DNA from: Spirochaetia bacterium
GTDB lineage: Bacteria > Spirochaetota > Spirochaetia > CADAEX01
Assembly: GCA_017446885.1 (NCBI GenBank)
Contig: JAFSOR010000017.1
Span: 1 to 64,000 of the forward strand
Length of the DNA: 64,000 nt
Direction of reading: 5' to 3'
Shown: positions 702-34,050 of the stretch, one piece after another
Numbering within the stretch: the first letter of the stretch is position 1
Layout of the letters: each line of letters starts with the position of its first letter
The notes under the pieces: model-generated
Databases searched by the model: none
Told to the model about the DNA's origin: nothing
The model's input: only the letters and a program-made list of their open reading frames with translations
Translations under genes and position numbers: made by a program

Positions 702-2027
702 ATGCGAATATTAATAATATCAGCATTTTTTCCTCCTTGTAATAATATTGCTTCATTACGTCCATATTCTTGGGCAAAATGGTGGTCTAAGGATGGGCAT
801 AAAGTAACTGTTATATCCAGTGATATCTATCAGGAACCAAAAAATTTACAGTTAGATTGTTCTGGTTTTAAGGTCATACAGACCCCATCTAATGTTCCTG
901 GGTTTTATAGAAAACTGACAGACATTGCTAAGGGAAAGAGAAAAAAAGAAATAGATAATAATTACAAGCTACAATCAAATGGTAAAAAATCTATTATAAG
1001 AAAGGTTTTGGATTGGTATGAGTATACTGGAATTTTTGGAATGCTCCGATATCCGGATTGGTACGATTGGTGGATAAATAAGGTAAAAAAACTGATTTCC
1101 CCATTTGATTATGATATGGTTATAACCACATCTGCTCCTTTTGGAGCACATAGGATAGGATATTATATAAAAAAGAGTAATCCTCTATGTACTTGGATAT
1201 GTGATTGGCGTGATTTATTGTCTGACAATCAGAATTATACCGGATTACCTATTTTTCACTGGTATGAACATCACTTGGAAAAGATGTTTGACAATACAGC
1301 TGATTGTGTTACCTCGGTTTCGGAAGAATTATGCAACATAATAAAAAAAAGAACTACTAAACCAGTTTATGTTATATATAATGGGTTTGATTCTGAATAT
1401 ATAGATACTATTATCCATCAAAAAGAAGATTTATTAAATACATTTACTATTGCATATACTGGAACAATATATAAAGGCAAACAGAATCCTTATGCGTTGT
1501 TTAAAGCAGTTTCAGAATTGAATAATGAAGGTAAAATAACCCCATTTGATCTTCAGTTGTTTTTTGCGGGAAAATGTGATTGTAAAGAATCGATAACACA
1601 ATTGAAAATAACAGAATATTATAACTATATGGGGTATATACCATACGAGGAGGCAATAAATCTTCAGCATAATAGTGATACGCTTTTATTTCTTGAGCCC
1701 ATCACAGGAGATTATAAAGGACTTCTTTCGGGTAAGATATTTGAATACCTTTATACTGCAAATGAGATCTGCAGTATAGGTAATGATCCAGAGAACAGCA
1801 CTAGAAAAGTGATAAAAGAATGTAATGCGGGGGTAGCCCTTGGTAATGATGTTCAAGCTATAAAACAGTATCTTTTGACTAGAATTGAACAGAAAAAACA
1901 GGGAATTCCATATAAAGCCAATAAAAACATGAATGAAATCATGAAGTATCATAGAAAAGCACAAGCGGAAAAAATATTAAGTTTGGTGAAAAATGAAGAA
2001 ATTAAGTATTCTAATACCCTGCTATAA
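702..2027 (+). CDS. Family 4-like glycosyltransferase, AT-rich
   Basis: A 441-residue putative GT-B glycosyltransferase. The N-terminus (RILIISAFFPPCNNIASLRP) is the typical first strand and loop of family 4 enzymes that begin with a PP..xASxR motif. A CDWRDLLSDN segment lies in the N-terminal domain, and AYTGTIYKGKQNP (about residue 250) starts the donor-binding domain. The enzyme should act in the cytoplasm on a lipid-linked glycan. The gene is strikingly AT-rich compared with both neighbours and uses many AUA and AAA codons, which suggests it was acquired separately. Its 3' end overlaps the start of the next gene by 35 bases. The substrate is unknown. Confidence 0.82.
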   Translation: MRILIISAFFPPCNNIASLRPYSWAKWWSKDGHKVTVISSDIYQEPKNLQLDCSGFKVIQTPSNVPGFYRKLTDIAKGKRKKEIDNNYKLQSNGKKSIIRKVLDWYEYTGIFGMLRYPDWYDWWINKVKKLISPFDYDMVITTSAPFGAHRIGYYIKKSNPLCTWICDWRDLLSDNQNYTGLPIFHWYEHHLEKMFDNTADCVTSVSEELCNIIKKRTTKPVYVIYNGFDSEYIDTIIHQKEDLLNTFTIAYTGTIYKGKQNPYALFKAVSELNNEGKITPFDLQLFFAGKCDCKESITQLKITEYYNYMGYIPYEEAINLQHNSDTLLFLEPITGDYKGLLSGKIFEYLYTANEICSIGNDPENSTRKVIKECNAGVALGNDVQAIKQYLLTRIEQKKQGIPYKANKNMNEIMKYHRKAQAEKILSLVKNEEIKYSNTLL

Positions 2028-2943
2028 TGAACAGGAAAATGTAGTTGCCATGAGCAATGCTGTGGTGGAAGAAGTTACTAAGAACCTTTCAAATTATGAT
2101 TATGAGCTGGTTTTTATAGACAACTGCTCTACGGATAATACCCGTCCATTGTTACGAGAAATATGCAAAAAGAATCCTAAGATTAAGGCTATTTTCAATG
2201 CCCGTAACTTCGGGCAGTTCAATTCTCCTTATCATGGAATGCTCCAGCTTGATGGGGATTGTATTATTACCCTATGCTGTGATTTCCAGGATCCTGTGGA
2301 ATTGATTCCAACATTTGTAAAAAAATGGGAAGAAGGGGCTAAGATAGTTGCTGGTATCAAAACCCATAGTGATGAAGATAAATTTGTTCGTTTTCTTAGA
2401 ACCTGCTATTATCGGATGGTTCAAAAGATGAGCCAGGTAGAGCAGATAGAACATTTCACGGGATTTGGTTTGTATGATAAGTCTTTCATCGAGGTGCTCA
2501 GAAACTTGAAAGATCCTACTCCTTTCTTACGTGGAATTGTTGCAGAGCTTGGATTTAAGCGCGTTGATGTTCCTTATCGTCAGGCAAAGCGCAAGGCTGG
2601 TAAAACACACAATAACTGGTACAGTCTATTTGATGCCGCAATGCTCAGTTTTACCAGCTATACAAAAGTGGGACTCCGTTTTGCTACTATAGGTGGATCA
2701 ATTGTTGCATTCCTAAGTTTTTTAGTTGCTATTGGTTATACTGTATATAAGTTTCTGCATTGGAAGGATTTCAATGCAGGTATAGCGCCTCTGGTAATAG
2801 GTGTATTCTTTCTGGGCGCTCTTCAGCTTTTTTTTATCGGCTTCTTGGGCGAGTATATCATGGCTATGAACAACCGTATTATGAACAGGCCGTTGGTGAT
2901 TGAGGAAGAAAGAATTAACTTCGAGGAAAAAGATGTCCATTAA
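1993..2943 (+). CDS. GtrB-like family 2 glycosyltransferase with two membrane helices
   Basis: A 316-residue GT-A transferase of the DPM1/GtrB/ArnC type, which transfers a sugar from a nucleotide donor to polyprenyl phosphate. The N-terminal LSILIPCYNEQENV, the acidic DNCSTDN and the CCDFQDP metal-binding region are all present. Two hydrophobic segments near residues 228-253 and 265-292 form the C-terminal membrane hairpin typical of GtrB. The following gene starts 11 bases before this stop, so they are translationally coupled. Its neighbours (aldolase, TPP enzyme, epimerase) suggest it may load an unusual sugar on the lipid carrier, but that is inference. Confidence 0.88.
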   Translation: MKKLSILIPCYNEQENVVAMSNAVVEEVTKNLSNYDYELVFIDNCSTDNTRPLLREICKKNPKIKAIFNARNFGQFNSPYHGMLQLDGDCIITLCCDFQDPVELIPTFVKKWEEGAKIVAGIKTHSDEDKFVRFLRTCYYRMVQKMSQVEQIEHFTGFGLYDKSFIEVLRNLKDPTPFLRGIVAELGFKRVDVPYRQAKRKAGKTHNNWYSLFDAAMLSFTSYTKVGLRFATIGGSIVAFLSFLVAIGYTVYKFLHWKDFNAGIAPLVIGVFFLGALQLFFIGFLGEYIMAMNNRIMNRPLVIEEERINFEEKDVH

Positions 2944-4543
2944 ACTGTTAGACTGTACACTTCGTGATGGAGCTTACATTGTAGAATCTATGTTCGGTAC
3001 TCCGGCCATCAAGGGAATTATCAAGCATATGCAGGATGCAAATGTGGATATCATTGAATGTGGCTGGCTTAAGGATAATCCGCATAAAGAGGGAAGCTCC
3101 TATTACCATGTACCATCTGATTTAGAACCATATCTTCTGGAGAAGAATCCCAACACCACCTACATCGTCATGATTGACTGGAACCGGTATAACACCGATA
3201 CCCTTCCCCCATATGATGGCAGGTCTTTAGATGCTATCCGGGTTGTGTTCCCTCATGGCAAGCAGAAAGAAGGCATCGAGGTGGGGAATAAAATAAAGGC
3301 AAAGGGATATAGAGTATTCTACCAGGCCGCAAATACATTGTCATACAGCAATGAAGATCTCATAAGCCTGGCACAGGATATGAACAAAGCCATGCCCGAA
3401 TCTCTGAGTGTAGTAGATACCTTTGGAGCTATGTATGACGAAGATCTTATCCGTATTTTTACTGTGCTGAACCAGAACCTTGATAAAAAAATCAGGCTGG
3501 GTTTCCATTCCCATAACAACCAGCAGCTCTCCTTTGCCCTTACTATCCAGTTTGTAGAAATGGCTCAGAAAGCTGGCCGCGATATTGTTGTAGATGCATC
3601 TCTATGTGGTATGGGGCGGGGTGCAGGAAATGCTACTACAGAGCTTTTGGTAAGCTATCTGAACCGCAAGCAGCATGCGAACTACGATCTGAACCTTGTC
3701 CTTGATGCCATAGATATGTATATGGGCTATTTTCAGGCCCATTATAAATGGGGTTATTCTACGCCATATTTTATTGCTGGTCTCTATTGCACCCATGTGA
3801 ACAATATAGCTTATCTGCTTAAAAACCACAGGACCAACGCCCAGGATATGAGGAATGTGATAGAATCCCTTGATCCTGCCGACCGGCTGAAATATGACTA
3901 CGATATCCTTGAGCAGAAGTTCTTGGAGAATCAGAGCCGGCTTGTGGATGACACAAGCACCCTTGCAATACTGCGACAGGAGTTCAAGGATAAGAAAGTG
4001 CTTCTTCTTGCTCCAGGTCGCTCGGTTGTAGAACAGATGAATAAAATCAACGGAGTTATTCAGAAGGAACATCCTGTTGTCATAGGAATTAATGCCTTTA
4101 TCACAGGTTATGCCTATGATTATGTCTTCTTTGTCAACTCTGCCCGGTATGAGTATGCAAAAGAAGTTCATTCTGATTTGTTTAATAAAACTAGAAAAAT
4201 AACTCTTTCCAGCATTAAATCGGAAGCTGGAAACGATGAATGCATAGTGAACTTTAACAATGTTATCAAGCGGGGCTGGGAACATTTTGACAATGCAGTT
4301 ATCTGCTGCCTGCGTCTGCTTGAAAAGCTGCAGGTCAAGGAAGTTATGCTTGCTGGTTTTGATGGCTTTAAGAATGTTTATAACGAAAGCTATGCCGATA
4401 CATCTTTACCATCTCTGAATCCAGAAAACAAGTGGGATGAACTTAATGAAGAGATTAAGGACATATTCTCTGATTTCAAGAAGTCAAACAGAAATATGAA
4501 TATTACATTTGTAACAGAGAGTTTATTCAATGAAAGTATCTGA
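2933..4543 (+). CDS. HMGL-like aldolase fused to a sialyltransferase-like (GT42/DUF115-type) domain
   Basis: A 536-residue protein. Residues 1 to about 300 are an HMG-CoA-lyase/DmpG-type TIM barrel: LLDCTLRDG (Arg11-Asp12) and the metal ligands His192 and His194 in GFHSHNN. Such enzymes join or split pyruvate-type units and aldehydes. Residues about 355-536 form a second domain starting KKVLLLAPGRSV and containing VIGINAF, DYVFFVNSARY, a DNAVICCLRLL helix and KEVMLAGFDGF. This order resembles family 42 sialyltransferases and DUF115 proteins, but I judge it by eye only. The ATG at 2933 is preferred because GAGGAAAA lies just upstream and the stop of the previous gene overlaps it. The next gene overlaps by 14 bases. 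It probably makes or transfers an unusual sugar acid. Confidence 0.8.
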   Translation: MSIKLLDCTLRDGAYIVESMFGTPAIKGIIKHMQDANVDIIECGWLKDNPHKEGSSYYHVPSDLEPYLLEKNPNTTYIVMIDWNRYNTDTLPPYDGRSLDAIRVVFPHGKQKEGIEVGNKIKAKGYRVFYQAANTLSYSNEDLISLAQDMNKAMPESLSVVDTFGAMYDEDLIRIFTVLNQNLDKKIRLGFHSHNNQQLSFALTIQFVEMAQKAGRDIVVDASLCGMGRGAGNATTELLVSYLNRKQHANYDLNLVLDAIDMYMGYFQAHYKWGYSTPYFIAGLYCTHVNNIAYLLKNHRTNAQDMRNVIESLDPADRLKYDYDILEQKFLENQSRLVDDTSTLAILRQEFKDKKVLLLAPGRSVVEQMNKINGVIQKEHPVVIGINAFITGYAYDYVFFVNSARYEYAKEVHSDLFNKTRKITLSSIKSEAGNDECIVNFNNVIKRGWEHFDNAVICCLRLLEKLQVKEVMLAGFDGFKNVYNESYADTSLPSLNPENKWDELNEEIKDIFSDFKKSNRNMNITFVTESLFNESI

Positions 4544-6302
4544 TTTAATTTTTGACTATGTTGCTTCCCTGGGAGTCAAACATGTATTTTATCTGCCTGG
4601 CGGCGGAGCAATGCATCTGGATGATTCCCTTGGGTATAATAAGAAACTGAAACCAATATGTATGCTTCATGAGCAGGCCTGTTCCATAGCTGCAGAGGCT
4701 TATGCCAGAATAAGCGGGAACTTTGGTGTATGTGTTGTGACCTCAGGGCCTGGTTCCACTAATGCAATTACTGGTCTTGTAGGTGCATGGCTTGATGGAA
4801 CCCCTGTCATCTTTATTTCCGGACAGGCAAAACGGGCCGATTTGGTCAACAATCAGAAAATACGGCAGTTTGGAATCCAGGAAGTAAACATTGTAGATAT
4901 AGTAAAATCTGTTACCAAATATGCGGTACAGATACAGGATCCGGAGATGATTCTGTATGAACTGGAGAAAGCAACTGCTATAGCAATGGATGGAAAGCCA
5001 GGTCCTGTATGGCTTGATGTTCCTTTAGATGTTCAAGCTTCGAAGGTTGAGAAAGAAAAATTAAGACATTGTTCAATTCCTTTCGATACCAATGAATGCA
5101 AAAATGCAGATGTGCTAGAAACAATTGCGCTTCTGAATAAAGCTAAAAGACCTTTGTTGCTTTTGGGGCATGGAATCCGTCAGGCTAATGCTGTCCCGGA
5201 GATGCAGAAGCTGATAAAAAAGCTTAATGTTCCTGTTATGACCACTTGGAATGGAGTGGATCTTATAGAAGATTCCAACCCCCTGTTCTTTGGGCGACCT
5301 GGTGCAGTAGGGCACAGGCATGCTAACTTTATACAGCAGAATGCAGATTTTGTCCTGACCATAGGTACCCGGCTTAACCTTTTATCCACAGGATATGATT
5401 TTGGCAGTTTCCTGCAGAAGGCCAAGCATGTAATGGTGGAAATAGATGCTAACGAGATGAAGAAATGCAGTGTTCATCCATATCTGGCGATTCACGCAGA
5501 TGCCAAGTCTTTCTTGGATAGAATGCTTGAAAGCAGTGACAAGATAAAAAAGAAAGAACGGAAAGAGTGGTGGGAATACTGCAAAGCCATGAAGAAAAGG
5601 TATCCGCTGTTCATCAAGGAGCAGATTCCGGCTGGTCAAGGGATTAATACCTATGATTTGGTCAATTCTATCACCGACAGAATGACCGGAAAGGATATTT
5701 TTCAGTTCACCAGTTCAGGAACTGGTGCTGACATCTCTATGTACTCTTTCCGGATAAAGAAGGGGCAACGGGCATTCCTGACCAAGGGACTTGCTTCCAT
5801 GGGCTTTGATATGTCTGCCTGCATAGGTTCCTGTCTTGCTGGAAAAGGCAGAAGAACAGTCTGTATAACTGGTGATGGTGGTTTTCTGATGAATGTCCAG
5901 GAACTGGCAACCTTGAAGAAGCTGAATCTGCCTATAAAGATATTCATCCTCTGCAACGAAGGTTATGGCATGATTTATAACTCCCAGGTGGGGAACTTCA
6001 ATCGCCTTGAGGGTTGTACTCCCGACAGCGGTCTTCCTATGCCGGACATCAAATCGGTGGTAAAGGGTTTCAAGGTCAAGTGTTTTGACCTCTCTGACAG
6101 CAGAAAGCTTGATAAAACAGTAGAGGATGTGCTCGGGTATGATGGCCCGGCCATATGCGCTGTCAAAGTCTATATCGGGCAGAAGATACTGCCTCGCCAA
6201 ACAAACTATATGAAGCCGGATGGCCAGATGGCTTCCCGGCCGCTGGAGGATATGTCTCCTCTGCTGGACCGGGATGAATTTGAGGCCAACTTACTGAAAT
6301 AG
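4530..6302 (+). CDS. Acetolactate synthase-like thiamine diphosphate enzyme
   Basis: A 590-residue protein of the IlvB/benzoylformate-decarboxylase superfamily. It has the usual three domains: a pyrimidine-binding domain with the catalytic glutamate (Glu48 in MLHEQACS), a central domain near residues 190-340, and the diphosphate-binding domain with GDGG at 448-451. Family members decarboxylate a 2-oxo acid and pass the activated fragment to an acceptor. No small regulatory IlvN subunit and no other branched-chain amino-acid gene is nearby. The gene is instead coupled to an aldolase before it and a sugar epimerase five bases after it. A role in making a branched or acyl-extended sugar, as YerE does for yersiniose, is more likely than valine synthesis, but the substrate is inferred. 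Confidence 0.88.
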   Translation: MKVSDLIFDYVASLGVKHVFYLPGGGAMHLDDSLGYNKKLKPICMLHEQACSIAAEAYARISGNFGVCVVTSGPGSTNAITGLVGAWLDGTPVIFISGQAKRADLVNNQKIRQFGIQEVNIVDIVKSVTKYAVQIQDPEMILYELEKATAIAMDGKPGPVWLDVPLDVQASKVEKEKLRHCSIPFDTNECKNADVLETIALLNKAKRPLLLLGHGIRQANAVPEMQKLIKKLNVPVMTTWNGVDLIEDSNPLFFGRPGAVGHRHANFIQQNADFVLTIGTRLNLLSTGYDFGSFLQKAKHVMVEIDANEMKKCSVHPYLAIHADAKSFLDRMLESSDKIKKKERKEWWEYCKAMKKRYPLFIKEQIPAGQGINTYDLVNSITDRMTGKDIFQFTSSGTGADISMYSFRIKKGQRAFLTKGLASMGFDMSACIGSCLAGKGRRTVCITGDGGFLMNVQELATLKKLNLPIKIFILCNEGYGMIYNSQVGNFNRLEGCTPDSGLPMPDIKSVVKGFKVKCFDLSDSRKLDKTVEDVLGYDGPAICAVKVYIGQKILPRQTNYMKPDGQMASRPLEDMSPLLDRDEFEANLLK

Positions 6303-6307
6303 TAATA

Positions 6308-7201
6308 ATGAGTTCATTGATCATAACTGGTGCTACCGGAATGATTGGCACTGCTGTCATCCGGGAAGCCATCAGACAGAATTGTAAAGTCACATGCATT
6401 GTCCATAAGGGATCAAAGAGAATAGGGAATATTCCTAAAAATCCTTTGGTTGCTGTTGTAGAGTGCAATATAGACGAATATGCATCCTTGGAGCTTGCCG
6501 GTAAATTTGATGCATTTATCCATCTGGCTTGGGCTAAAACATCAGTTGTAGGGCGGGATGATATAGATACACAGATAAGAAATATCCAATATACACTGGA
6601 TGCTGTCAGATTGGCTCATAGATGCGGTTGTTCTGTCTTTATAGGAGCTGGCAGCCAGGCTGAATATGGAGTAAGGTCTGTTCCACTGACTGGTGATCTG
6701 CCGGTTCAGCCGGAAAGTGGCTATGGAATTGCTAAGTTTACAGCTGGAAAACTGAGTGGTATGCTCTGTAAGCAACTGGGAATACGGTTTAATTGGATTA
6801 GGATTTTAAGTATTTATGGTAAAAATGATGGAGAAAACACTCTGATCAGCTATGTGATAAAGGAGTTGGCTGCTAAAAGAAGCCCAGAACTAACAAAATG
6901 TGAGCAGTTGTGGGATTATCTTAACTGCGAAGATGTGGCAAAAGCCTTCTTTGCCGTGCTTGAGAAAGGCGTAGATGGCAAAGTATATCCTCTGGGTTCT
7001 GGACAGGGCAGAAAGCTGTCTTCTTATGTAGAAGATATCCGGGATGTGATAGACCCAGGCATAGAGCTTAGTTTTGGAAAAAAAGAATATTATCCCCACC
7101 AACCCATGTATTTGGTGGCTGATATTTCTGAACTGACAGGAGATACAGGCTGGAAGCCGGAAGTTGAATTTAAAGATGGAATCAAGAATCTCATTAAATA
7201 A
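6308..7201 (+). CDS. NAD-dependent sugar epimerase/dehydratase (extended SDR)
   Basis: A 297-residue extended short-chain dehydrogenase. The nucleotide-binding GATGMIG lies at residues 8-14 and the catalytic YGIAK (Tyr139, Lys143) follows, with GAGSQAEYG supplying the usual serine region. Family members epimerise, dehydrate or reduce nucleotide-linked sugars. It begins five bases after the TPP enzyme, so the aldolase, TPP enzyme and this protein form a likely three-step route. Reduction of a keto-sugar after a two-carbon transfer would fit, but the sequence does not fix the reaction. The first residues of the following membrane protein overlap its 3' end. Confidence 0.87.
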   Translation: MSSLIITGATGMIGTAVIREAIRQNCKVTCIVHKGSKRIGNIPKNPLVAVVECNIDEYASLELAGKFDAFIHLAWAKTSVVGRDDIDTQIRNIQYTLDAVRLAHRCGCSVFIGAGSQAEYGVRSVPLTGDLPVQPESGYGIAKFTAGKLSGMLCKQLGIRFNWIRILSIYGKNDGENTLISYVIKELAAKRSPELTKCEQLWDYLNCEDVAKAFFAVLEKGVDGKVYPLGSGQGRKLSSYVEDIRDVIDPGIELSFGKKEYYPHQPMYLVADISELTGDTGWKPEVEFKDGIKNLIK

Positions 7202-8714
7202 AATTGTTTATATTTACCTGGCTCTGCCGGTCATTATCTTCATGCTTACCTGGATCCGTCCTTCAATCGGTATTTCTGCTGCCATGCTAGTTTGCTTTGC
7301 ATTGTTTTTTGCTATAAAAGGCATAGATCAAGCAAATAAAATAGTTTTATCACAAAAAGCTATCCTAATTACCATAGCAATAGCCTTTATTTGGTGCTTT
7401 TTTGCAGGGCAGGGTGGTTTCTGGTACCAGAGCACAGATCATGCTTTTAGAAATGCGGTATTTAGGGATTTGGTTTATCGCCCTTGGCCCGTGGTTTTTG
7501 AAGAACATGATGTACTTTTGAATTATTATGTAGGGTATTGGCTTGTTCCAGCATTGTTTGGAAAATTTTTTCATTTTATGACCCAGAGCACAGCTGGGGC
7601 ATGGTTGGTTGCCAAGGTAGCATTGCTATTGTGGTCTACCTTGAGTATAACCCTTTGTTTTCTTCTGCTTGCAAATGTGTTGCATTGTAATGATTCCAAA
7701 CGGTTCTTTTCTGCCGTTTTCCTTTTTATCTGTTTCAGTGGCCTTGATATTATTGGAATATATTTGCTAAATAAAAAAGCTGGACTACATCTTGAATGGT
7801 GGTGCCCCGGATATCAATACAGTGCTTTTACCGTATGTCTTTTTTGGGTCTATAATCAGGCAATTCCTGCTTGGATAGCCACTCTACTTCTGCTTGCTGA
7901 GCGTAAGATTGAGAATTTTGCTTTCTGTGGATTATGCATATTTATTTCCAGCCCAATTCCTCTTATAGGATTGTTTCCAATCTACGTGGTGGTTGGAATT
8001 CAGGAATTGATGAAATCCAAGGAAAAGCTTGTTGGGCTAAGAAAGATATTCTCTTTGCAGAATTTAATAGCATGTCTGATTATTTTCCCTATCTGTTTTA
8101 TTTATTTTAGCAATAACGCGGCAGTCAGCATGAAGGGTGTTCATGGTATAAATGCTCCTGGGATACAAACCGCATCTATACAGACCAATATTGCTGTAAC
8201 CTCACCCAAAATGACAAATGTTCCAAAGGCAGAACGCCCAGCGGTCAAATTTATTAAAGAAAGCATTAAAATGCTTATATTCTTTATGGTTGAATTCGGA
8301 ATATACTTGCTTTTGGTTCTGAAAAAGCAGAAAAAATCGCTGCTATTTTGGATTGTTGCATTGGAATTGATTGTTATTCCATTTATTCATATTGGAACCA
8401 GCCATGATTTCTGCATGCGGGCCTCAATTCCACCTCTTGTTGTCCTGATGACGATGGTTTTTGATGATTTTTATTATTCCTATGAAAAGAAAAATCTTAA
8501 GTTTACGCTATATTGCATAGTTCTGGCATTTGCAGTTTTGACCCCCGGAAAGGAATTCTACCGTGGAGTATTTGAAATCTATAAGCATAAACAATTTGAA
8601 GATAATAGGCTTATTTCTATAGAAAAAATGATTATTTCCAAACGCGTTCGTAATAATTTTATCTCTTATGATTATTCAGAGTCGCTTTTTTATAAATATT
8701 TAGCTAAAAAATAG
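7176..8714 (+). CDS. Polytopic membrane protein, possible GT-C glycosyltransferase
   Basis: A 512-residue integral membrane protein with about 10-12 hydrophobic segments. An extracytoplasmic loop after the third helix reads STDHAFRNAVFRDLV...RPWPV and ends in NYYVGYWLVPA. A (D/E)xxxH/R-rich first loop of this type is seen in GT-C transferases of the family 39/ArnT kind, which use lipid-linked sugars. No enzymatic motif is certain, and an oligosaccharide polymerase is possible. The ATG at 7176 is chosen over a TTG at 7164. It lies inside the 3' end of the epimerase gene. The gene is AT-rich like the next two. Confidence 0.7.
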   Translation: MESRISLNKIVYIYLALPVIIFMLTWIRPSIGISAAMLVCFALFFAIKGIDQANKIVLSQKAILITIAIAFIWCFFAGQGGFWYQSTDHAFRNAVFRDLVYRPWPVVFEEHDVLLNYYVGYWLVPALFGKFFHFMTQSTAGAWLVAKVALLLWSTLSITLCFLLLANVLHCNDSKRFFSAVFLFICFSGLDIIGIYLLNKKAGLHLEWWCPGYQYSAFTVCLFWVYNQAIPAWIATLLLLAERKIENFAFCGLCIFISSPIPLIGLFPIYVVVGIQELMKSKEKLVGLRKIFSLQNLIACLIIFPICFIYFSNNAAVSMKGVHGINAPGIQTASIQTNIAVTSPKMTNVPKAERPAVKFIKESIKMLIFFMVEFGIYLLLVLKKQKKSLLFWIVALELIVIPFIHIGTSHDFCMRASIPPLVVLMTMVFDDFYYSYEKKNLKFTLYCIVLAFAVLTPGKEFYRGVFEIYKHKQFEDNRLISIEKMIISKRVRNNFISYDYSESLFYKYLAKK

Positions 8715-12016: not shown

Positions 12017-12733
12017 ATGAATAATGTATTAATCTTCGCAGGTGGCGCAGGCCGCCGGATGAACAGCAGGTCTAAACCAAAACAGTTTCTTAAGCTGTAT
12101 GGCAAGGAGATAATTATCCATACCTTGGAGAATTTCCAGAATCATCCGGAGGTGGACAATATAGTTGTTGTATGCATCAAGGGTTGGATTGGCTACCTTC
12201 AGAAACTTCTGGCACAGTACGGCATGGATAAGGTGCACCTTATTGTTGCCGGAGGTAAAACAGGACAGGAGTCAATCTATAATGGCCTCTGTGCACTTTC
12301 TGACTTTGCCCCGGAAGATTCTATTGTCTTGGTACATGATGGAGTACGTCCATTTGTTACAGATACTCTTATTTCTGATTGCATTAAATCTGTGAAGAAA
12401 AATGGTTCTGCTATTACAGTTACACCAGCAATTGAAACTATAGTAGAGCTGGATGGTAAAAAGATTTCAGCTATAACTGACAGAAGCAAGTGCTATCATG
12501 CCAAGGCACCTCAGTGTTTCTATCTTGGAGAATTACTTGCTGCTCATATGAAGGCTATAAAGGATGGCAATACCAATATGATAGACTCTGCCTCCTTGAT
12601 GAAACATTATGGTCATGATCTTTTTGTTGTACCAGGAACAACAGATAACATAAAAATTACTACTCCTGCAGACTTCTATGCTTTCCGTGCATTATATGAT
12701 GCCAGAGAAAATCAGCAGATTTTTGGACTATGA
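12017..12733 (+). CDS. IspD/TarI-family cytidylyltransferase
   Basis: A 238-residue nucleotidyltransferase. It has the FAGGAGRRM...SKPKQFLKLYGKEI opening and the VHDGVRPFV and TPAIETIV segments of the IspD/TarI family. IspD makes CDP-methylerythritol for isoprenoids; TarI makes CDP-ribitol for teichoic acids. The context (an SDR overlapping by four bases, two TagF-like transferases and LicD) argues strongly for a CDP-polyol used in a surface polymer. The partner is an extended SDR rather than the usual TarJ, so the exact polyol is open. Composition returns to moderate GC here, ending the AT-rich segment. Confidence 0.85.
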   Translation: MNNVLIFAGGAGRRMNSRSKPKQFLKLYGKEIIIHTLENFQNHPEVDNIVVVCIKGWIGYLQKLLAQYGMDKVHLIVAGGKTGQESIYNGLCALSDFAPEDSIVLVHDGVRPFVTDTLISDCIKSVKKNGSAITVTPAIETIVELDGKKISAITDRSKCYHAKAPQCFYLGELLAAHMKAIKDGNTNMIDSASLMKHYGHDLFVVPGTTDNIKITTPADFYAFRALYDARENQQIFGL

Positions 12734-13776
12734 TAAACCCAATAGTTGAATCAGATATAAAAGAACTCATATTAAGAAAGAAATATTTTGAACCATTTAT
12801 CGGCTCTTCTGTGCTCATTACAGGAGCAACTGGCCTTCTTGGCTCTTTGATGGTAAAGTCGGTATCGCACTACGCTGGTACTGTCTATACATGCTGTAGA
12901 AGCAAGACAAAGTTTGAATCAGTTTTTGAGGGGTATAAAGCAGAAAATATATTTCCTATTTTTTCTGATATCACTGATTTGGATATATCCAAGCTGACAG
13001 TTGATTATATTATCCATGCGGCCAGCCCTACAGATTCCAAGTGTTTTGTCGAGAAGCCTGTGGATACTATCACTACAGCAGTAGAAGGAACCAATCATCT
13101 TCTTGCTCAGTGTATTGGAAAATCTCTTAAGGGCTTTATATATCTTAGTTCACTTGAGGTGTATGGTTTTTTTCCTGGTTGCACAGGAATTAAGAATGTG
13201 ACAGAGACAGATTATGGCTATCTTGAGCCAATGTCTATAAGATCCAGTTATTCTGAGAGCAAAAGGCTGGTAGAAACATTGAGTAAGGCATATCTGAGCC
13301 AATATGGTGTTCCTGTTAAGATTGCCAGGTTGTGCCAGACTTTCGGGGCGGGTGTCCGATATAATGACAATCGTGTTTTTGCTCAGTTTGCTCGGAGTGT
13401 CATAGAAGGAAAGGATATTGTTCTTAGAACAAAAGGAGAGACAGTCCGCAATTATTGTTATACAACCGATTCTATTGCAGGTATTCTGACTGTTTTGGCA
13501 TCTGGAACAGCAGGCGATGTCTACAATGTTGCAAACAAGGGCACAACAATTTCAATAGCAGATATGGCTGATCTCTTTTGTAAACTCTCTCCCGAAAACA
13601 GATCCAAGGTAATCTTTGACATAGCAGAAGATGCTGGAAAGCTTGGATATAACCCGACAGTTAAGTTGCAGCTTGATACCAGTAAACTTGAGAAACTGGG
13701 ATGGCGGCCAGAGATAGACCTTAATGATATGATTTGTCGTTTAGTTGAAGGTATGAAAAATGAGAAACTTGTTTGA
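12730..13776 (+). CDS. Extended SDR partner of the CDP-polyol cytidylyltransferase
   Basis: A 348-residue NAD(P)-dependent extended SDR. The VLITGATGLLGS Rossmann motif lies near residues 29-40, SSLEVYG gives the active-site serine region, and SYSESKRL holds the Tyr-xxx-Lys pair. Its ATG overlaps the cytidylyltransferase stop by four bases. It therefore probably acts on the same sugar or polyol, either making the polyol phosphate substrate or modifying the activated product. It is not the zinc alcohol dehydrogenase TarJ. Its end overlaps the first TagF-like gene by 17 bases. Confidence 0.85.
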   Translation: MINPIVESDIKELILRKKYFEPFIGSSVLITGATGLLGSLMVKSVSHYAGTVYTCCRSKTKFESVFEGYKAENIFPIFSDITDLDISKLTVDYIIHAASPTDSKCFVEKPVDTITTAVEGTNHLLAQCIGKSLKGFIYLSSLEVYGFFPGCTGIKNVTETDYGYLEPMSIRSSYSESKRLVETLSKAYLSQYGVPVKIARLCQTFGAGVRYNDNRVFAQFARSVIEGKDIVLRTKGETVRNYCYTTDSIAGILTVLASGTAGDVYNVANKGTTISIADMADLFCKLSPENRSKVIFDIAEDAGKLGYNPTVKLQLDTSKLEKLGWRPEIDLNDMICRLVEGMKNEKLV

Positions 13777-14938
13777 TGTTATAATTCGATATTATAGGTT
13801 TATTACTAAACGTATCATTCGTGTCCTTCTTCGTGTTTTCTATATTTTTCCTGTGGACGAGAAGAAAATAGTTTTCTCAACTTTTGGTGGCAAACGATAT
13901 TCCTGTAATCCTAAATATCTTTATTGTTACATCAAAGAGAAATTTGGCGATAAATATAAGTATATCTGGATTTTCCAAAATCCCAAGAAGCGGGAGCTGG
14001 TGCCGGGAGCTGTCTGTGCAATAAATAAACTGACAAAACTTTATGCCTTTCTTACCAGCAAATATATCATTTCCAACAATGATGTCTTCTGGTTCCTACC
14101 TTTACGAAAAAGCCAGATAGTGGTTCAGACTTGGCATGGAGGCGGAGCCTATAAGAAGGTTGGCTCTTTTGAGAACTGGAACAGAGTTTTCTTATATTGC
14201 CAGAAGAAGGTTGCAGAAGATATTTCTTACTACATTTCCTCAAGCCAGAAATTCACAGAAGTACAGTCCCCCTCCAAATTTGTTCCAAAAGAAAAATTCA
14301 TTAATACAGGAATGCCACGGAATGAGGTTTTCTTTTATCCTGACAGGATGACAGAATTTAAGAAGCGTGTAGTAGATTTTTATAATATTCCAACTGATAA
14401 GAAAATAGTGCTTTATGCGCCTACTTTCCGAGGAGAGCCAAGGGTTAAAGTGGTAAAGGAAAAATTGCAGTACGGATCCTTTAACTATAAGAAAACTATA
14501 GAGGATATAACGAAGCGATTTGGTGGGGAATGGGTTCTTCTTTATAGAGGGCACCATCTTGATTCTTCTGTCTCACGAGCTCTGCCAGATACAGTCATTA
14601 ATGCCTCAAAGTACGAGGATATGCAAGAATTGCTTTGTGCCTCTGATGTCCTTATAACCGATTTCTCTTCTACCATGTGGGATTTTGCCCTGACTAAAAG
14701 ACCATGTTTCCTGTATGCCCCAGACTTGCAGCAGTATATTGCAGACCGCGGTTTCTATACTGATCCATTCACCTGGCCGTTCCCTATGGCTCAGAGCGAT
14801 ATTGAACTTTCTGCCAACATCAAGGGCTTTGATCCGGCTGCTTACGAAAAAGCTGTTGAGAAGCATCTCTCTGACTTTGGATCTTATGAGAACAAGGATG
14901 CCTGTCAGAAAGTACTTGATGCTATTGGTATATGCTGA
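13760..14938 (+). CDS. CDP-glycerol/ribitol phosphotransferase-like protein (TagF family), first of tandem pair
   Basis: A 392-residue member of the TagB/TagF glycerophosphotransferase family. A hydrophobic N-terminal region (residues about 10-32) probably binds the membrane surface. The catalytic TWHGGGAYK contains His126, and DVLITDFSSTMWDFAL in the C-terminal half is the CDP-binding acidic/serine motif. Such enzymes polymerise glycerol- or ribitol-phosphate from CDP-polyols onto lipid-linked acceptors in the cytoplasm. The next gene is a close paralogue. With the cytidylyltransferase and LicD it forms a teichoic-acid-like block, unusual in a diderm but known in some capsules. Confidence 0.88.
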   Translation: MRNLFDVIIRYYRFITKRIIRVLLRVFYIFPVDEKKIVFSTFGGKRYSCNPKYLYCYIKEKFGDKYKYIWIFQNPKKRELVPGAVCAINKLTKLYAFLTSKYIISNNDVFWFLPLRKSQIVVQTWHGGGAYKKVGSFENWNRVFLYCQKKVAEDISYYISSSQKFTEVQSPSKFVPKEKFINTGMPRNEVFFYPDRMTEFKKRVVDFYNIPTDKKIVLYAPTFRGEPRVKVVKEKLQYGSFNYKKTIEDITKRFGGEWVLLYRGHHLDSSVSRALPDTVINASKYEDMQELLCASDVLITDFSSTMWDFALTKRPCFLYAPDLQQYIADRGFYTDPFTWPFPMAQSDIELSANIKGFDPAAYEKAVEKHLSDFGSYENKDACQKVLDAIGIC

Positions 14939-16083: not shown

Positions 16084-16910
16084 TGTCTAAGACCCTTACT
16101 CCGAAAGAACTCCGCAAGGTACAACTCCTTGAACTCAAAGTGCTCAAGGAAATAAAGCGTATCTGCACAAAGCACGATATAAAGTACTTCCTTACCGGTG
16201 GTACTCTGATAGGGGCGGTGCGGCACAAGGGCTTTATCCCCTGGGATGATGATATCGATATTGCCATGATGCGGCCCGATTACGACCGTTTTCTGGAGAT
16301 TGCCCCCAAGGAGCTGGGATCTGAGTTTGAGCTTCTCTGTATTCAGCATGATCCTAAAATTGGTACTTTCTTCTCTAAAGTAGTACTTAACGGAACAACC
16401 TACCGGAACATCCAGCAGCCAGATAATGCAAAAAACTTCGGTTTTTTAGTGGACGTGCTGCCCTATGATACGATTTATGACAATAAACTTCTGGCAAAGC
16501 TTTACTTCTGCTGGCTGAACTTCTGTGTGGTGCTCTATTCCATGAAGAATGGGTATCATAACGGTACAACTAAGTTTAAGCGGTTTGTAGCAAAGGCTAT
16601 GAAGATCTGCTTCTTCTGGGTGCCCAAGGAATGGCTCCGGAAGACTATAATCAACTATCCATATCGGCTGAATAAAAAGAAAACCAATACAAAAGCCTAT
16701 CTTTCCGGACGTTATGGAATCCCCAGGGAGATGCGGAGTACCTATCTTTTCGGCGAGTATACAGAGCTGCCTTTTGAGGATGACACCTTCATGGTTCTGA
16801 AGGAATATCATGCTTTTTTAACCGAGCTTTTCGGCGATTATATGAAGCTGCCTCCTGTGGAGCAGCGGGTCACCCATCAGGTGGCCGAACTCGATTTTGG
16901 GAAATATTAA
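16083..16910 (+). CDS. LicD-family phosphotransferase
   Basis: A 275-residue LicD protein. LTGGTLIGAVRHKGFIPWDD (ending at residue 56) and the acidic cluster Asp55-Asp56-Asp57 and Asp59 are the signature of this nucleotidyltransferase-like fold. LicD proteins move phosphocholine, or in related systems other phospho-groups, from CDP donors onto surface sugars. No choline uptake or kinase gene is nearby, so the group transferred is unknown. The ATG at 16083 sits in a TAATG junction with the preceding gene and is preferred to an in-frame GTG at 16056. It ends one base into the following radical SAM gene. Confidence 0.9.
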   Translation: MSKTLTPKELRKVQLLELKVLKEIKRICTKHDIKYFLTGGTLIGAVRHKGFIPWDDDIDIAMMRPDYDRFLEIAPKELGSEFELLCIQHDPKIGTFFSKVVLNGTTYRNIQQPDNAKNFGFLVDVLPYDTIYDNKLLAKLYFCWLNFCVVLYSMKNGYHNGTTKFKRFVAKAMKICFFWVPKEWLRKTIINYPYRLNKKKTNTKAYLSGRYGIPREMRSTYLFGEYTELPFEDDTFMVLKEYHAFLTELFGDYMKLPPVEQRVTHQVAELDFGKY

Positions 16911-18373
16911 TGCACATAGTATTTATTAACCCGCCGTTCAAGGCGGAATATGGAAAATTTTCTAGGGAATCGCGTAGCCCGGCTATAACCAAGAGCGGAG
17001 CTCTCTACTATCCGCTGTGGCTTATCTACGCGGCGGCGTACTGCCAGAAGTATGGCCACAGGGTAGACTTTATCGACGCCCCTGCAAAGCCGCTGGATGA
17101 GTTTGAGACCCTTGAGCTGGTAGAGGAGAAGGTTGGTGGCGAGCAGGTGCTGTTTGTCCTTGACACCAGCACCCCGTCGATAAAGAGCGATGTAGCCTTT
17201 GGTGCCAAGCTTAAGAAAAAGTACCCCGATTCCTTTGCTGTTCTGGTTGGAACCCATCCTTCTGCCTGTGCAGAAGAGACTTTAGGCTACAGCGATGCAA
17301 TTGATGCAGTTGCGATAGGGGAGTTTGACTACACTATCAGGGAGCTGGCCGATGTCTTTGACAAAGGCACTCCCTTAGAAGATGTCCGGGGGCTATGCCT
17401 GCGGACCGAGGGCGGTTTGGTGCGGACTTCTCCAATGCCCCATATCACCGACATGGACGACATCCCCTTTGCAGCCCAGTTCATAAAAGAGAATCTGGAC
17501 GAGAAAGACTACTTCTTTGCAGCTGCAACCTATCCGGCTATACAGATATTCACTGGCAGGGGCTGCCCTTGCAGGTGTACTTTCTGCGTATACCCACAGG
17601 TGATGCACGGCCATCCTTTCCGGGCCCGGAGCCCAGAGAGCGTGGTGGAGGAGTTCCAGTACATTGCCGAGAACTTCCCCGATGTTAAGGAAGTTGTCAT
17701 TGAAGATGATACCTTTACCATAGATAAAGCACGGGTGCGGCGGATTTCTGAGCTTCTGATCGAGGCAGGGCTTCCTAAGCGGCTTAAGTGGCTGTGCAAT
17801 GCCCGGGCCAATACTTTGGATCTGGATACCATGCGCCTTATGAAGAAATCGGGGTGTCGCCTTATCATTCCAGGCTTTGAGAGCGGGAGCCAGAAGATTC
17901 TGGACAATATCAAGAAAGGTATCAAGCTTGAGCAGATATACGATTATGTAAAAAATGCCAAGAAGGCAGGACTCCTTATCCACGCATGCTACATGGTGGG
18001 TAACGATGGCGAGACCAAGGAAACCATGGAAGAGACCCTTCAGCTGGCCCTTAAGCTGAATACTGACACAGCCCAGTTCTTTCCCCTTATTCCATATCCG
18101 GGGACCGAGGCCTACGACCTAGCCCGAAAGAACGGCTGCCTGACCCTGGATTACGAGAACTATTGCAACGAGGATGGCACCCACAACACAGTACTGAATC
18201 TGCCGGGCCTCTCTGCTCAGGAGATGGTGGATTTCTGCAACTATGCCCGGAAGAAGTATTACCTTAGGGTGCGCTACTTCCTCCACCGCCTGTGGGTGGG
18301 GCTGCGCAACCCAGACGACCTAAAGAGGTCGATAAAAGCATTCGGCAAACTGAGGAAATACCTTTTCAAATAA
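16910..18373 (+). CDS. B12-binding-domain radical SAM protein
   Basis: A 487-residue protein with an N-terminal cobalamin-binding-like Rossmann domain (residues about 1-165; VFINPPF opening and a GTHPSA segment), then a radical SAM barrel with the CxxxCxxC cluster Cys219, Cys223 and Cys226 in GRGCPCRCTFC. Members of this class methylate unreactive carbons or rearrange carbon skeletons in lipids, cofactors and natural products. The cobalamin histidine motif DxHxxG is not obvious, so B12 use is uncertain. Its place between LicD and a glycosyltransferase suggests it modifies a surface polymer or its lipid, but the substrate cannot be read from the sequence. Confidence 0.87.
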   Translation: MHIVFINPPFKAEYGKFSRESRSPAITKSGALYYPLWLIYAAAYCQKYGHRVDFIDAPAKPLDEFETLELVEEKVGGEQVLFVLDTSTPSIKSDVAFGAKLKKKYPDSFAVLVGTHPSACAEETLGYSDAIDAVAIGEFDYTIRELADVFDKGTPLEDVRGLCLRTEGGLVRTSPMPHITDMDDIPFAAQFIKENLDEKDYFFAAATYPAIQIFTGRGCPCRCTFCVYPQVMHGHPFRARSPESVVEEFQYIAENFPDVKEVVIEDDTFTIDKARVRRISELLIEAGLPKRLKWLCNARANTLDLDTMRLMKKSGCRLIIPGFESGSQKILDNIKKGIKLEQIYDYVKNAKKAGLLIHACYMVGNDGETKETMEETLQLALKLNTDTAQFFPLIPYPGTEAYDLARKNGCLTLDYENYCNEDGTHNTVLNLPGLSAQEMVDFCNYARKKYYLRVRYFLHRLWVGLRNPDDLKRSIKAFGKLRKYLFK

Positions 18374-19721: not shown

Positions 19722-22304
19722 GTGAACCCATTATATTTAATTTTCATATATCCAATAGAACTCCTCATTGAGCTGGTGTTCCAGCTTTCCTACGAGTTGT
19801 GGGACAGCCCTGGCATATCGCTTGCAGCGGTGAGCCTTGCGGTCAGCTTCCTCTCCCTGCCTCTGTACATAATTGCAGAGCGGTGGCAGCAGAAGGAGCG
19901 GGATATCCAGAAGGCATTCAAGCCTGAGATTGACGAGATAAAGGCTGTGTTCAAGGGGGATGAGCGGTATATGATCCTCTCCACCTTCTATCGGCAGAAC
20001 CATTACCATCCGGTGATGGCACTCCGCAGCTCCATAAGCCTGATGATTCAGGTGCCGTTCTTTATCGCCGCCTATGTGTTCCTGTCAAATCTGGAGCTTC
20101 TGCGTGGTCAGAGCCTGTGGTTCATTAAAGACCTGGGTGCACCCGACCAGCTGTTCAGCATCGGCGGCTTTCCTGTAAACATCCTCCCTATAGCCATGAC
20201 TGTGATTAACATCATAGCCAGTGCTGTATACGTAAAGGGTTTTGCTTTCAAGGAGAAGCTCCAGCTCTACGGTATGGCGGCCCTGTTCCTGGTGTTGCTC
20301 TACAATTCTCCGGCAGGGCTTGTCTTCTACTGGACGCTGAACAACGTTTTCTCTCTGTGCAAGAATATATGTTATAAGGTCAAATTTAAAAGGTCAGTGA
20401 CCTTAAAAAATGACCTTTTAAAAGTATACAACTTCTGTAAGCATCCTCTGGTGCCGCTTTATAGGCAGGACAGGCTGCGGTTTGGAATCTTTTTCTTGTG
20501 CTGCGCTGCCTTTCTCCTGCTGGTAGGGGCTGTTATTCCATCGTCCCTCATCTGCTCATCGGTGCAGGAGTTCTCTTATATAGAGCCTTTCAAGAGTCCT
20601 CTTGGCATACTCAAGTTCCCGTTCCTTCAGACTATGGGAATTGCAGTATGGATGGTGGCACTCTACTTCCTTTTCTCCAAAAAGACGCAGACTGTGTTCA
20701 CATTCCTCCTTTTGGCTGGAATTGCTGGCGGCCTTGTAAACACCTATGTTTTTGCAGGTGGATATGGTACGGTGCTGGCTCAGAACGGCCTTATCTTCGA
20801 GAACGGTCTTAAGATAAAGAACGAGCTGGCCAAGTTCCCCATCGATATTGCCACCGCTTTTGTAGTGATAAGTCTGGTTCTCTTTATCCTGGGCAAGGGC
20901 TGGCTTAAGGCGGTAAAGAATGTATGCGCTATCCTGGTGCTGGCTCTGCTTGCATTCTCGGTCTTCAATGTAGCAAAGATAAATAGCGAGTTCCACAGGC
21001 TTGAAACAATTGTGGCATCGAGTTCCAACCGGGGAAGCGATGAGACTGTAAAGCCTGTGTATCACTTCTCCCGGACAGGGAAGAATGTGGTTGTTATCAT
21101 GCTGGACCGGGGCATAAGCTCTTTTGTACCTTACATAATGAAAGAGCTGCCTTCAGTCAAGGAGAACTTCCGGGGTTTTGTCTGGTATCCAAATACGCTG
21201 GCTCCAGGGGATCACACTATCTTCTCTGCTCCAGCCATCTTCGGCGGGTATGACTATCTGCCCCAGGTCATGAATGGAAGGCGTGATCAGCTGCTTATAG
21301 ATAAGCACAACGAATCCCTGAAGGTGCTGCCTGCATATTTCCTGAACCAAGGTTATCAGGTTTCTGTCACCGACCCACCTATGGCCAACTACAGCTGGAC
21401 TCCCGATAACTCTATATTTCCCAAGGAGATTCATGCAGTTAATATAGGCGGCCGATACGACAAGCTGTGGCGTAAGGAGCATGGAATGGAGCTTTCGGGC
21501 TTTATTCTGTCAGACTTCATGAAGCGGGATTTCCTTTTCTTCGATTTCTTCCGTGTCTGCCCTGTGTCGCTTCGTGGAATCCTCTACGACCACGGTGGAT
21601 GGTGGAATTCTAATAAGGATAAAGCCAAGGATGAGAATTCCCTGGCTATAAAGTACTATTCGGCTCTAGACTACTTGTCTGGGCTCTCTGATGTAGTGGA
21701 GGGAGCTGGTTCCTACATGGCGCTGGACAATGACCTGCCCCACGAGCCTGCTTGGATGCAGTATCCCGATTACAAACTGCAGGCCAAGATTACAGACAGG
21801 GGCAAAAACCGCTTTGGAGCCGAGACTGTTTTTATTCACTACCACGCTAATGCCGCCACATTGCGGCTGCTGGGTCAGTGGTTTGCTTGGATGAGAGAAA
21901 ATGATGTCTACGACAACACCCGGATAGTTATAGCTTCTGACCACGGCCGGCATTTTAAGGGGGAGAATAAGACCCTGGAGACCGACTTTGACAAGAGCGA
22001 CCTGGCTGCTTGGAACGCTCTTCTGCTGTACAAGGACTTTGGAGCTGATGGCGAGATTGTCACCGATACTACCTTTATGACAGTTGCCGATGTCCCATAC
22101 CTGGCCACCCATGGAATTTCCGATAAACCTGTAAATCCTTTTACAGGGAATGCATTTGACATGGCCGGGAAAAAGGATGGTGTCACTGTGGTGACAGGTC
22201 TGGGCGAGGCCAGCGACCATGGCAAATACACTTTCAACTATACCGAGAAATATCGGGTAAAAGATAATATTTTCAAGGCTGCCAACTGGGAGAAGCTTAA
22301 ATGA
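19722..22304 (+). CDS. YidC-like membrane domain fused to a sulfatase/phosphoglycerol-transferase-type domain, copy 1
   Basis: An 860-residue fusion. Residues 1 to about 215 match YidC/Oxa1: a first helix with SFLSLPLY, a charged hairpin, LMIQVPFFIAAYVFLS, and the hallmark SPAGLVFYWTLNNVFSL. The groove arginine of YidC insertases is replaced by Ser42. Five or more hydrophobic segments follow (about 250-430). Residues about 450-860 form an alkaline-phosphatase-superfamily domain: VVVIMLDRG (Asp462), a GDHTIFSAPAIF segment with a candidate threonine nucleophile, and SDHGRHF (Asp740, His741) as metal ligands. LtaS and OpgB, which transfer phosphoglycerol, belong to this superfamily. The GTG start aligns with the start of copy 2 at 34051. 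It overlaps the next gene by four bases. Confidence 0.85.
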   Translation: MNPLYLIFIYPIELLIELVFQLSYELWDSPGISLAAVSLAVSFLSLPLYIIAERWQQKERDIQKAFKPEIDEIKAVFKGDERYMILSTFYRQNHYHPVMALRSSISLMIQVPFFIAAYVFLSNLELLRGQSLWFIKDLGAPDQLFSIGGFPVNILPIAMTVINIIASAVYVKGFAFKEKLQLYGMAALFLVLLYNSPAGLVFYWTLNNVFSLCKNICYKVKFKRSVTLKNDLLKVYNFCKHPLVPLYRQDRLRFGIFFLCCAAFLLLVGAVIPSSLICSSVQEFSYIEPFKSPLGILKFPFLQTMGIAVWMVALYFLFSKKTQTVFTFLLLAGIAGGLVNTYVFAGGYGTVLAQNGLIFENGLKIKNELAKFPIDIATAFVVISLVLFILGKGWLKAVKNVCAILVLALLAFSVFNVAKINSEFHRLETIVASSSNRGSDETVKPVYHFSRTGKNVVVIMLDRGISSFVPYIMKELPSVKENFRGFVWYPNTLAPGDHTIFSAPAIFGGYDYLPQVMNGRRDQLLIDKHNESLKVLPAYFLNQGYQVSVTDPPMANYSWTPDNSIFPKEIHAVNIGGRYDKLWRKEHGMELSGFILSDFMKRDFLFFDFFRVCPVSLRGILYDHGGWWNSNKDKAKDENSLAIKYYSALDYLSGLSDVVEGAGSYMALDNDLPHEPAWMQYPDYKLQAKITDRGKNRFGAETVFIHYHANAATLRLLGQWFAWMRENDVYDNTRIVIASDHGRHFKGENKTLETDFDKSDLAAWNALLLYKDFGADGEIVTDTTFMTVADVPYLATHGISDKPVNPFTGNAFDMAGKKDGVTVVTGLGEASDHGKYTFNYTEKYRVKDNIFKAANWEKLK
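20378..20424 (+). repeat. Intragenic palindromic repeat, GGTCA/TGACC type
   Basis: TTTAAAAGGTCA at 20385-20396 and its exact complement TGACCTTTTAAA at 20411-20422 flank a 14-base loop that holds a smaller AAGGTCA-type copy. The same 12-base arms occur at 49153-49206. The element is read in frame and falls in the linker just after the last YidC-type helix. Confidence 0.7.
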
Positions 22305-34047: not shown

Positions 34048-34050
34048 GTG

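Follow-up and report, generated by a model that had tools for sequence, protein, structure and literature searches.

We analysed positions 1 to 64,000 (forward strand; hereafter the window) of contig JAFSOR010000017.1 from a Spirochaetia bacterium of the CADAEX01 lineage (assembly GCA_017446885.1, 1.75 Mb) and concentrated on three consecutive genes at 2933-7201. They encode an aldolase with a fused C-terminal tail, a thiamine pyrophosphate (TPP; thiamine diphosphate, ThDP)-dependent enzyme and an extended short-chain dehydrogenase/reductase (SDR). This cassette is probably the branch-making part of a pathway to a C-branched deoxysugar, in which the aldolase would make the donor, the ThDP enzyme would couple it and the SDR would reduce the new branch. 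All three open reading frames (ORFs) lie on the plus strand and carry the domains named in the initial annotation. They form a tight operon, with a 14-base overlap between the aldolase and TPP ORFs and a 5-base gap between the TPP and SDR ORFs:

2933-4543, plus strand: HMGL/DmpG-like aldolase with tail (ORF, 536 amino acids)
2933..3952, plus strand: HMGL/DmpG-like (3dxi-type) metal-dependent aldolase domain with a helical DmpG-like extension (residues 1-340)
3965..4543, plus strand: C-terminal tail with a GT42/DUF115 (CstII, Maf, MptE) fold (residues 345-536 and stop codon)
4530-6302, plus strand: YerE/JanthE-like ThDP-dependent lyase (ORF, 590 amino acids; PDB match 8rph and tree)
6308-7201, plus strand: extended SDR, ketoreductase or epimerase (ORF, 297 amino acids; Pfam Epimerase, GxxGxxG and Y139xxxK143)

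The TPP enzyme and the SDR

The TPP enzyme contains the Pfam TPP_enzyme N, M and C domains (1e-28 to 1e-34), an HEQ motif at residues 47-49 with the catalytic Glu, and a GDG at 448-450 that marks the ThDP/Mg site. Its best PDB match is JanthE (8rph, E 1.8e-112; acetolactate synthase, 1.1e-71), with which it shares a C-terminal extension, and in our tree JanthE is nested in a clade of aldolase-linked TPP enzymes, with the IlvB proteins outside. Phe-109 and Arg-276 are active-site residues characteristic of acetohydroxyacid synthase (AHAS); they are replaced by I116 and L285 in the TPP enzyme, while the organism's own IlvB retains both. Judged from its sequence, the enzyme is thus YerE/JanthE-like and not an acetolactate synthase, which bears out the relationship to yersiniose-type enzymes that had been proposed for it. 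It differs from JanthE in having the canonical GDG, where JanthE has CDG. The SDR is a clear Pfam Epimerase match (2.8e-32) with conserved GxxGxxG and Y139xxxK143 motifs.

That the TPP enzyme serves branched-chain amino acid synthesis as an ordinary acetolactate synthase, and lies in a polysaccharide cluster by chance, is very improbable. NCBIfam acolac_lg does score 345 bits, though below its cut-off of 538. Against this stand the JanthE clustering, the loss of the AHAS-specific residues, the conserved sugar-gene neighbourhood, and a separate ilvB on another contig of the same genome (contig 19, against contig 13 for the window) with an adjacent ORF for an ACT-type regulatory (small) subunit.

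The aldolase and the probable origin of the donor acid

The aldolase domain resembles DmpG and 3dxi in its TIM barrel, RDG motif, metal-binding histidines and helical extension. Pfam HMGL-like matches at 5.4e-19, best in the second half of the barrel, and the nearest solved structure in a PDB search is 3dxi (E 4.9e-26), itself uncharacterised. The aldolase model has a mean predicted local distance difference test score (pLDDT) of 93, and Foldseek aligned it to 3dxi and DmpG with probability 1.00 over ~350 columns. R11, D12, H192 and H194 of the metal site do not vary among 74 homologues, and they align to R17-D18, H200 and H202 of DmpG. Unlike DmpG, the window aldolase carries an extra GT42-fold tail, and no DmpF partner was recognised among the neighbouring genes examined. 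The curated DmpG families stayed below their cut-offs (TIGR03217, 78 bits versus 286; PRK08195, 90 bits versus 229), and PF07836, the DmpG communication domain, had no match in the organism's own genome and equally none in control genomes, which makes this result uninformative.

One scan of named genomes yielded 80 loci with a tail-bearing aldolase, in Lachnospiraceae, other Clostridia, Bacillus, Paenibacillus, Helicobacter, Fusobacterium, Treponema, Bacteroidales, Gastranaerophilales and one archaeon, while no relatives were found on viral contigs. The archaeal copy is full-length and lies on a contig of a Methanomassiliicoccaceae metagenome-assembled genome (L121:9989-11581). With loci from further genomes and from plasmids included, 92 loci fell into 48 of a cytidine monophosphate (CMP) type, defined by a KdsB- or NeuA-like cytidylyltransferase beside the aldolase and often a HAD phosphatase, 35 of a TPP type, three with both features and six with neither. 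Co-occurrence was counted among tail-bearing loci under stricter criteria, which left 31 TPP-type and 50 CMP-type loci.

RfbF, RfbG and RfbH form the route to cytidine diphosphate (CDP)-4-keto-3,6-dideoxyglucose, the acceptor of YerE. At least one of the three genes lies within the stretch of 23/31 TPP-type loci versus 1/50 CMP-type loci (P 1.7e-12, a value that, like the other co-occurrence P values, ignores shared ancestry, the two types differing in phylogeny). SDR orthologues occur in 18/31 versus 0/50, and a PgfS/ArnC transferase in 13/31 versus 0/50. All three Rfb proteins reach equivalog level in locus L044, and the nearest relatives carry the cassette with Rfb genes upstream or nearby, as in L040, whose aldolase is 65% identical to that of the window. 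The relatives' cassettes share with the YerE, ErwE and JanthE systems the company of CDP-4-keto-3,6-dideoxyglucose genes, in addition to the clade and C-terminal extension that the lyase has in common with JanthE. What sets the window lyase apart from these enzymes, along with many from Bacillota and spirochaetes, is its pairing with a dedicated tail-bearing aldolase.

Three kinds of accessory gene were seen in these relatives. An AroB-related cyclising phospholyase is encoded in TPP-type loci L044 (9896-10948; TIGR04425, 466 bits), L062 (Lachnospiraceae AB2028), L078, L113, L116 (Clostridium thailandense) and L137, which may point to carbocyclic branched sugars resembling caryose. L113, from Treponema sp. 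RGIG756, matches a genome of the window's class at 100% identity over 4.8 kb, which places the window organism among the Spirochaetia but in another family than this Treponema. Split transketolase N and C genes stand alongside the aldolase and TPP genes in L050, L053, L067, L068 and L070, and in Desulfobaculum (L008) such split genes are accompanied by RfbH and by an aldolase that lacks the tail. In L184, whose TPP enzyme is the closest to that of the window (79% identical), a SIS-domain protein and an NTP-transferase/APH-kinase fusion are encoded between the aldolase and TPP genes (12474-14590).

YerE joins a pyruvate-derived unit to CDP-3,6-dideoxy-4-ketoglucose, and ErwE makes erwiniose from CDP-4-keto-3,6-dideoxyglucose with 4-hydroxy-2-oxo acids, its preferred donors, and not with pyruvate (PMC12247030). 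An aldolase beside a YerE-like enzyme would explain where such a donor acid comes from. Based on gene content, fold, family placement and co-occurrence, we propose a pathway whose substrates and order of reactions are predicted. The aldolase domain would form a 4-hydroxy-2-oxo acid by condensing an aldehyde with an enolisable 2-oxo acid, most probably pyruvate. The ThDP enzyme would decarboxylate this acid, and the acyl anion so formed would be added to CDP-4-keto-3,6-dideoxy-D-glucose at its C4 ketone; this acceptor would come from RfbF-RfbG-RfbH. The SDR would then reduce the ketone of the new branch, and the PgfS/ArnC-type transferase would probably move the sugar to a polyprenyl carrier, from which it would enter a surface polymer. 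This would probably yield a 4-C-branched 3,6-dideoxy sugar resembling erwiniose and yersiniose. The initial annotation had suggested a branched or acid sugar, and the RfbFGH genes of relatives support a branched-sugar pathway. Since the cassette includes a dedicated aldolase, a longer hydroxylated branch is more likely than a two-carbon one of the type added in yersiniose synthesis, which the annotation had cited as a parallel.

We consider it rather unlikely that the donor is plain pyruvate, giving a yersiniose-like two-carbon branch, and that the aldolase works for a different sugar in that polymer. YerE itself uses pyruvate (PMC12247030), and a sample drawn from the TPP side, in one spirochaete family only, had an aldolase nearby in 17/29 YerE-like loci (15 with a tail) and no clear one in the other 12. 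Against a pyruvate donor, ErwE uses hydroxylated donors, and the TPP gene directly follows and overlaps the aldolase gene in the window, the two being adjacent also in most window-clade relatives.

Several observations weigh against the proposed route from an aldolase-made donor to a CDP-keto-sugar. The catalytic His21 of DmpG is replaced by Tyr15 in the window aldolase, and by Tyr or Phe in 74/74 homologues, so the aldol chemistry may differ in detail from that of DmpG. The 12/29 loci without a clear aldolase imply that the YerE-like class does not always need one. None of RfbF, RfbG and RfbH was found above cut-off in the organism's own assembly. The window runs from position 1 of its contig, which opens 11 bases ahead of a truncated glycosyltransferase gene and thus inside the surface-polymer cluster, and the Rfb genes may plausibly be missing for this reason. 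Finally, 8/31 TPP-type loci have no Rfb gene in the stretch covered, so other acceptors may exist.

The CMP-type loci suggest a different reading, which we regard as quite possible: the fusion may be a general ulosonate synthase, in which aldolase and tail together produce one 3-deoxy-2-ulosonate (phosphate) whatever the context, to be CMP-activated or used as C-branch donor, with the tail as a domain essential for catalysis or feedback. In 48/92 loci this fused aldolase has a cytidylyltransferase next to it and no TPP gene; these loci resemble CMP-ulosonate modules (KdsB/KdsC, NeuA), whereas the window aldolase is partnered with a TPP enzyme and an SDR. A HAD phosphatase lies within three genes in 33/50 CMP-type loci, some of these phosphatases being KdsC/KDN-9-phosphatase-like, and no residue separates the two contexts. 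However, such a phosphatase is near only 9/31 TPP-type loci and none is adjacent in the window, so the acceptor aldehyde may differ in TPP-type loci. A general ulosonate synthase overlaps with the proposed C-branch pathway and does not exclude it.

The fused tail

No Pfam family covers the residues beyond the aldolase in the window protein. Modelled alone with AlphaFold 2, residues 345-536 gave a pLDDT of 94.6 and a predicted template modelling score of 0.92. VIA-align matched this model to the Maf glycosyltransferase 5mu5 (Z 12.7), CstII 1ro8 (Z 12.3; root mean square deviation 3.2 over 170 aligned residues) and MjHPPK 8sd5, of the MptE/DUF115 kind (Z 11.7). Further matches were SteA, mammalian sialyltransferases and thiamine pyrophosphokinases, and the next ones reached only Z 5.0. 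The predicted fold agrees with the GT42/DUF115 resemblance first read from the sequence; the GT42 match rests on VIA-align, since Foldseek alone returned SteA, weakly. PF01973 (DUF115) matched 8/50 tails (best E 4.1e-6), the window's own not among them, Pfam CST-I matched 1/50 (E 0.08), and a PF06002 search of the class gave one weak match below the cut-off. Among full ORFs the tail never occurs as a stand-alone gene, the sole exception being a 125-residue fragment.

The motifs of the initial annotation lie at residues 360-365 (APGRSV), 385-389 (GINAF), 453-456 (DNAV) and 469-477 (KEVMLAGFD). Conservation of P361, G362, N387, R405, S426, G475, D477, G478, Y487 and T528 is 92% or higher in each of the two context groups (74 homologues), so these motifs are not due to chance. 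In a comparison with the sequence of PDB 1ro7, N31, N51 and Y162 of CstII have conserved counterparts in N387, N402 and Y487, a mapping that constitutes moderate evidence because it combines motif order with a colinear hhalign alignment of only 10.5% probability that stops at CstII 163. The general base of CstII is H188 (PMC4202792). Near this position, which was placed by eye, no His is conserved in the tail. The window's tail also differs from CstII in lacking a GT42 Pfam match and in its constant fusion to an aldolase.

The tail had been suggested to transfer the finished sugar, and this now appears quite unlikely. CstII and a Maf glycosyltransferase are among the closest folds and the three CstII residues have their counterparts, but no conserved His takes the place of the general base. 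Every position conserved in both the CMP- and the TPP-type loci is the same in the two groups, in aldolase and tail alike; the final transferase is expected to differ between donors, and the sameness of the tail thus argues against sugar transfer and fits a role tied to the aldolase step. In addition, a PgfS/ArnC transferase, encoded separately, goes with the TPP context (13/31 versus 0/50), and the same gene set occurs in L052 with a tail-less aldolase, which makes the tail arguably dispensable for the sugar chemistry. The tail-less cassette of L052 (5003-7148) lies beside a separate cytidylyltransferase-like gene and a gene for a phosphoribosyltransferase-domain protein.

Because both contexts make cytidine-activated sugars, a cytidine nucleotide suggests itself as ligand, and the tail appears to retain equivalents of residues that contact the nucleotide, though not the GT42 base. 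We consider it most likely that the tail binds such a nucleotide (CMP- or CDP-sugar) and thereby regulates or serves the aldolase. C-terminal domains of isopropylmalate synthases exert feedback control, and by analogy feedback through the tail is one option. More tentatively, the fused protein may be a bifunctional synthase, in which the sialyltransferase/DUF115-fold domain performs or gates a step that cannot be separated from the aldol reaction. It would then feed two sugar families, namely CMP-activated ulosonates and branched sugars made by joining a ThDP-decarboxylated ulosonate to a CDP-keto-sugar.

Surroundings in the window and wider meaning

The cassette lies in a cluster of the surface-polymer type with flippase, GlfT2-like, IspD-like, TagF-like and LicD genes. 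Its immediate neighbours are:

1993..2943, plus strand: PgfS/ArnC-type polyprenyl-phosphate glycosyltransferase (NCBIfam PgfS 167 bits, PRK10714 120 bits, both below cut-offs)
7164..8714, plus strand: multi-spanning membrane protein (~8 hydrophobic segments, no Pfam match)

The glycosyltransferase gene overlaps the aldolase gene by 11 bases, and its product is a candidate for the sugar's carrier; the membrane protein is possibly a GT-C-like transferase. Elsewhere in the window, two proteins (19722-22304 and 34048-36990) combine YidC-like (60KD_IMP) N-terminal with sulfatase/LtaS-like C-terminal matches. Their genes adjoin TagF- and cytidylyltransferase-like genes, and such a fusion is unusual for a teichoic-acid-like cluster in a spirochaete. 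A B12-binding radical SAM protein is encoded at 16910-18373 within the surface-polymer cluster.

Both the lyase and the CDP-sugar route belong to known kinds. For the tail-fused, dedicated aldolase and its use in two contexts, no description was found in the reachable literature, and a search that took in few subscription journals found no paper linking an HMGL-type aldolase to YerE-like clusters. A GT42/DUF115-fold tail for which no curated family scores above threshold is common to two sugar pathways that otherwise differ. The conserved pairing of YerE-like enzymes with an aldolase, across dozens of bacteria from gut and rumen, points to the source of the hydroxylated donor acid and makes the structure of the sugar predictable.

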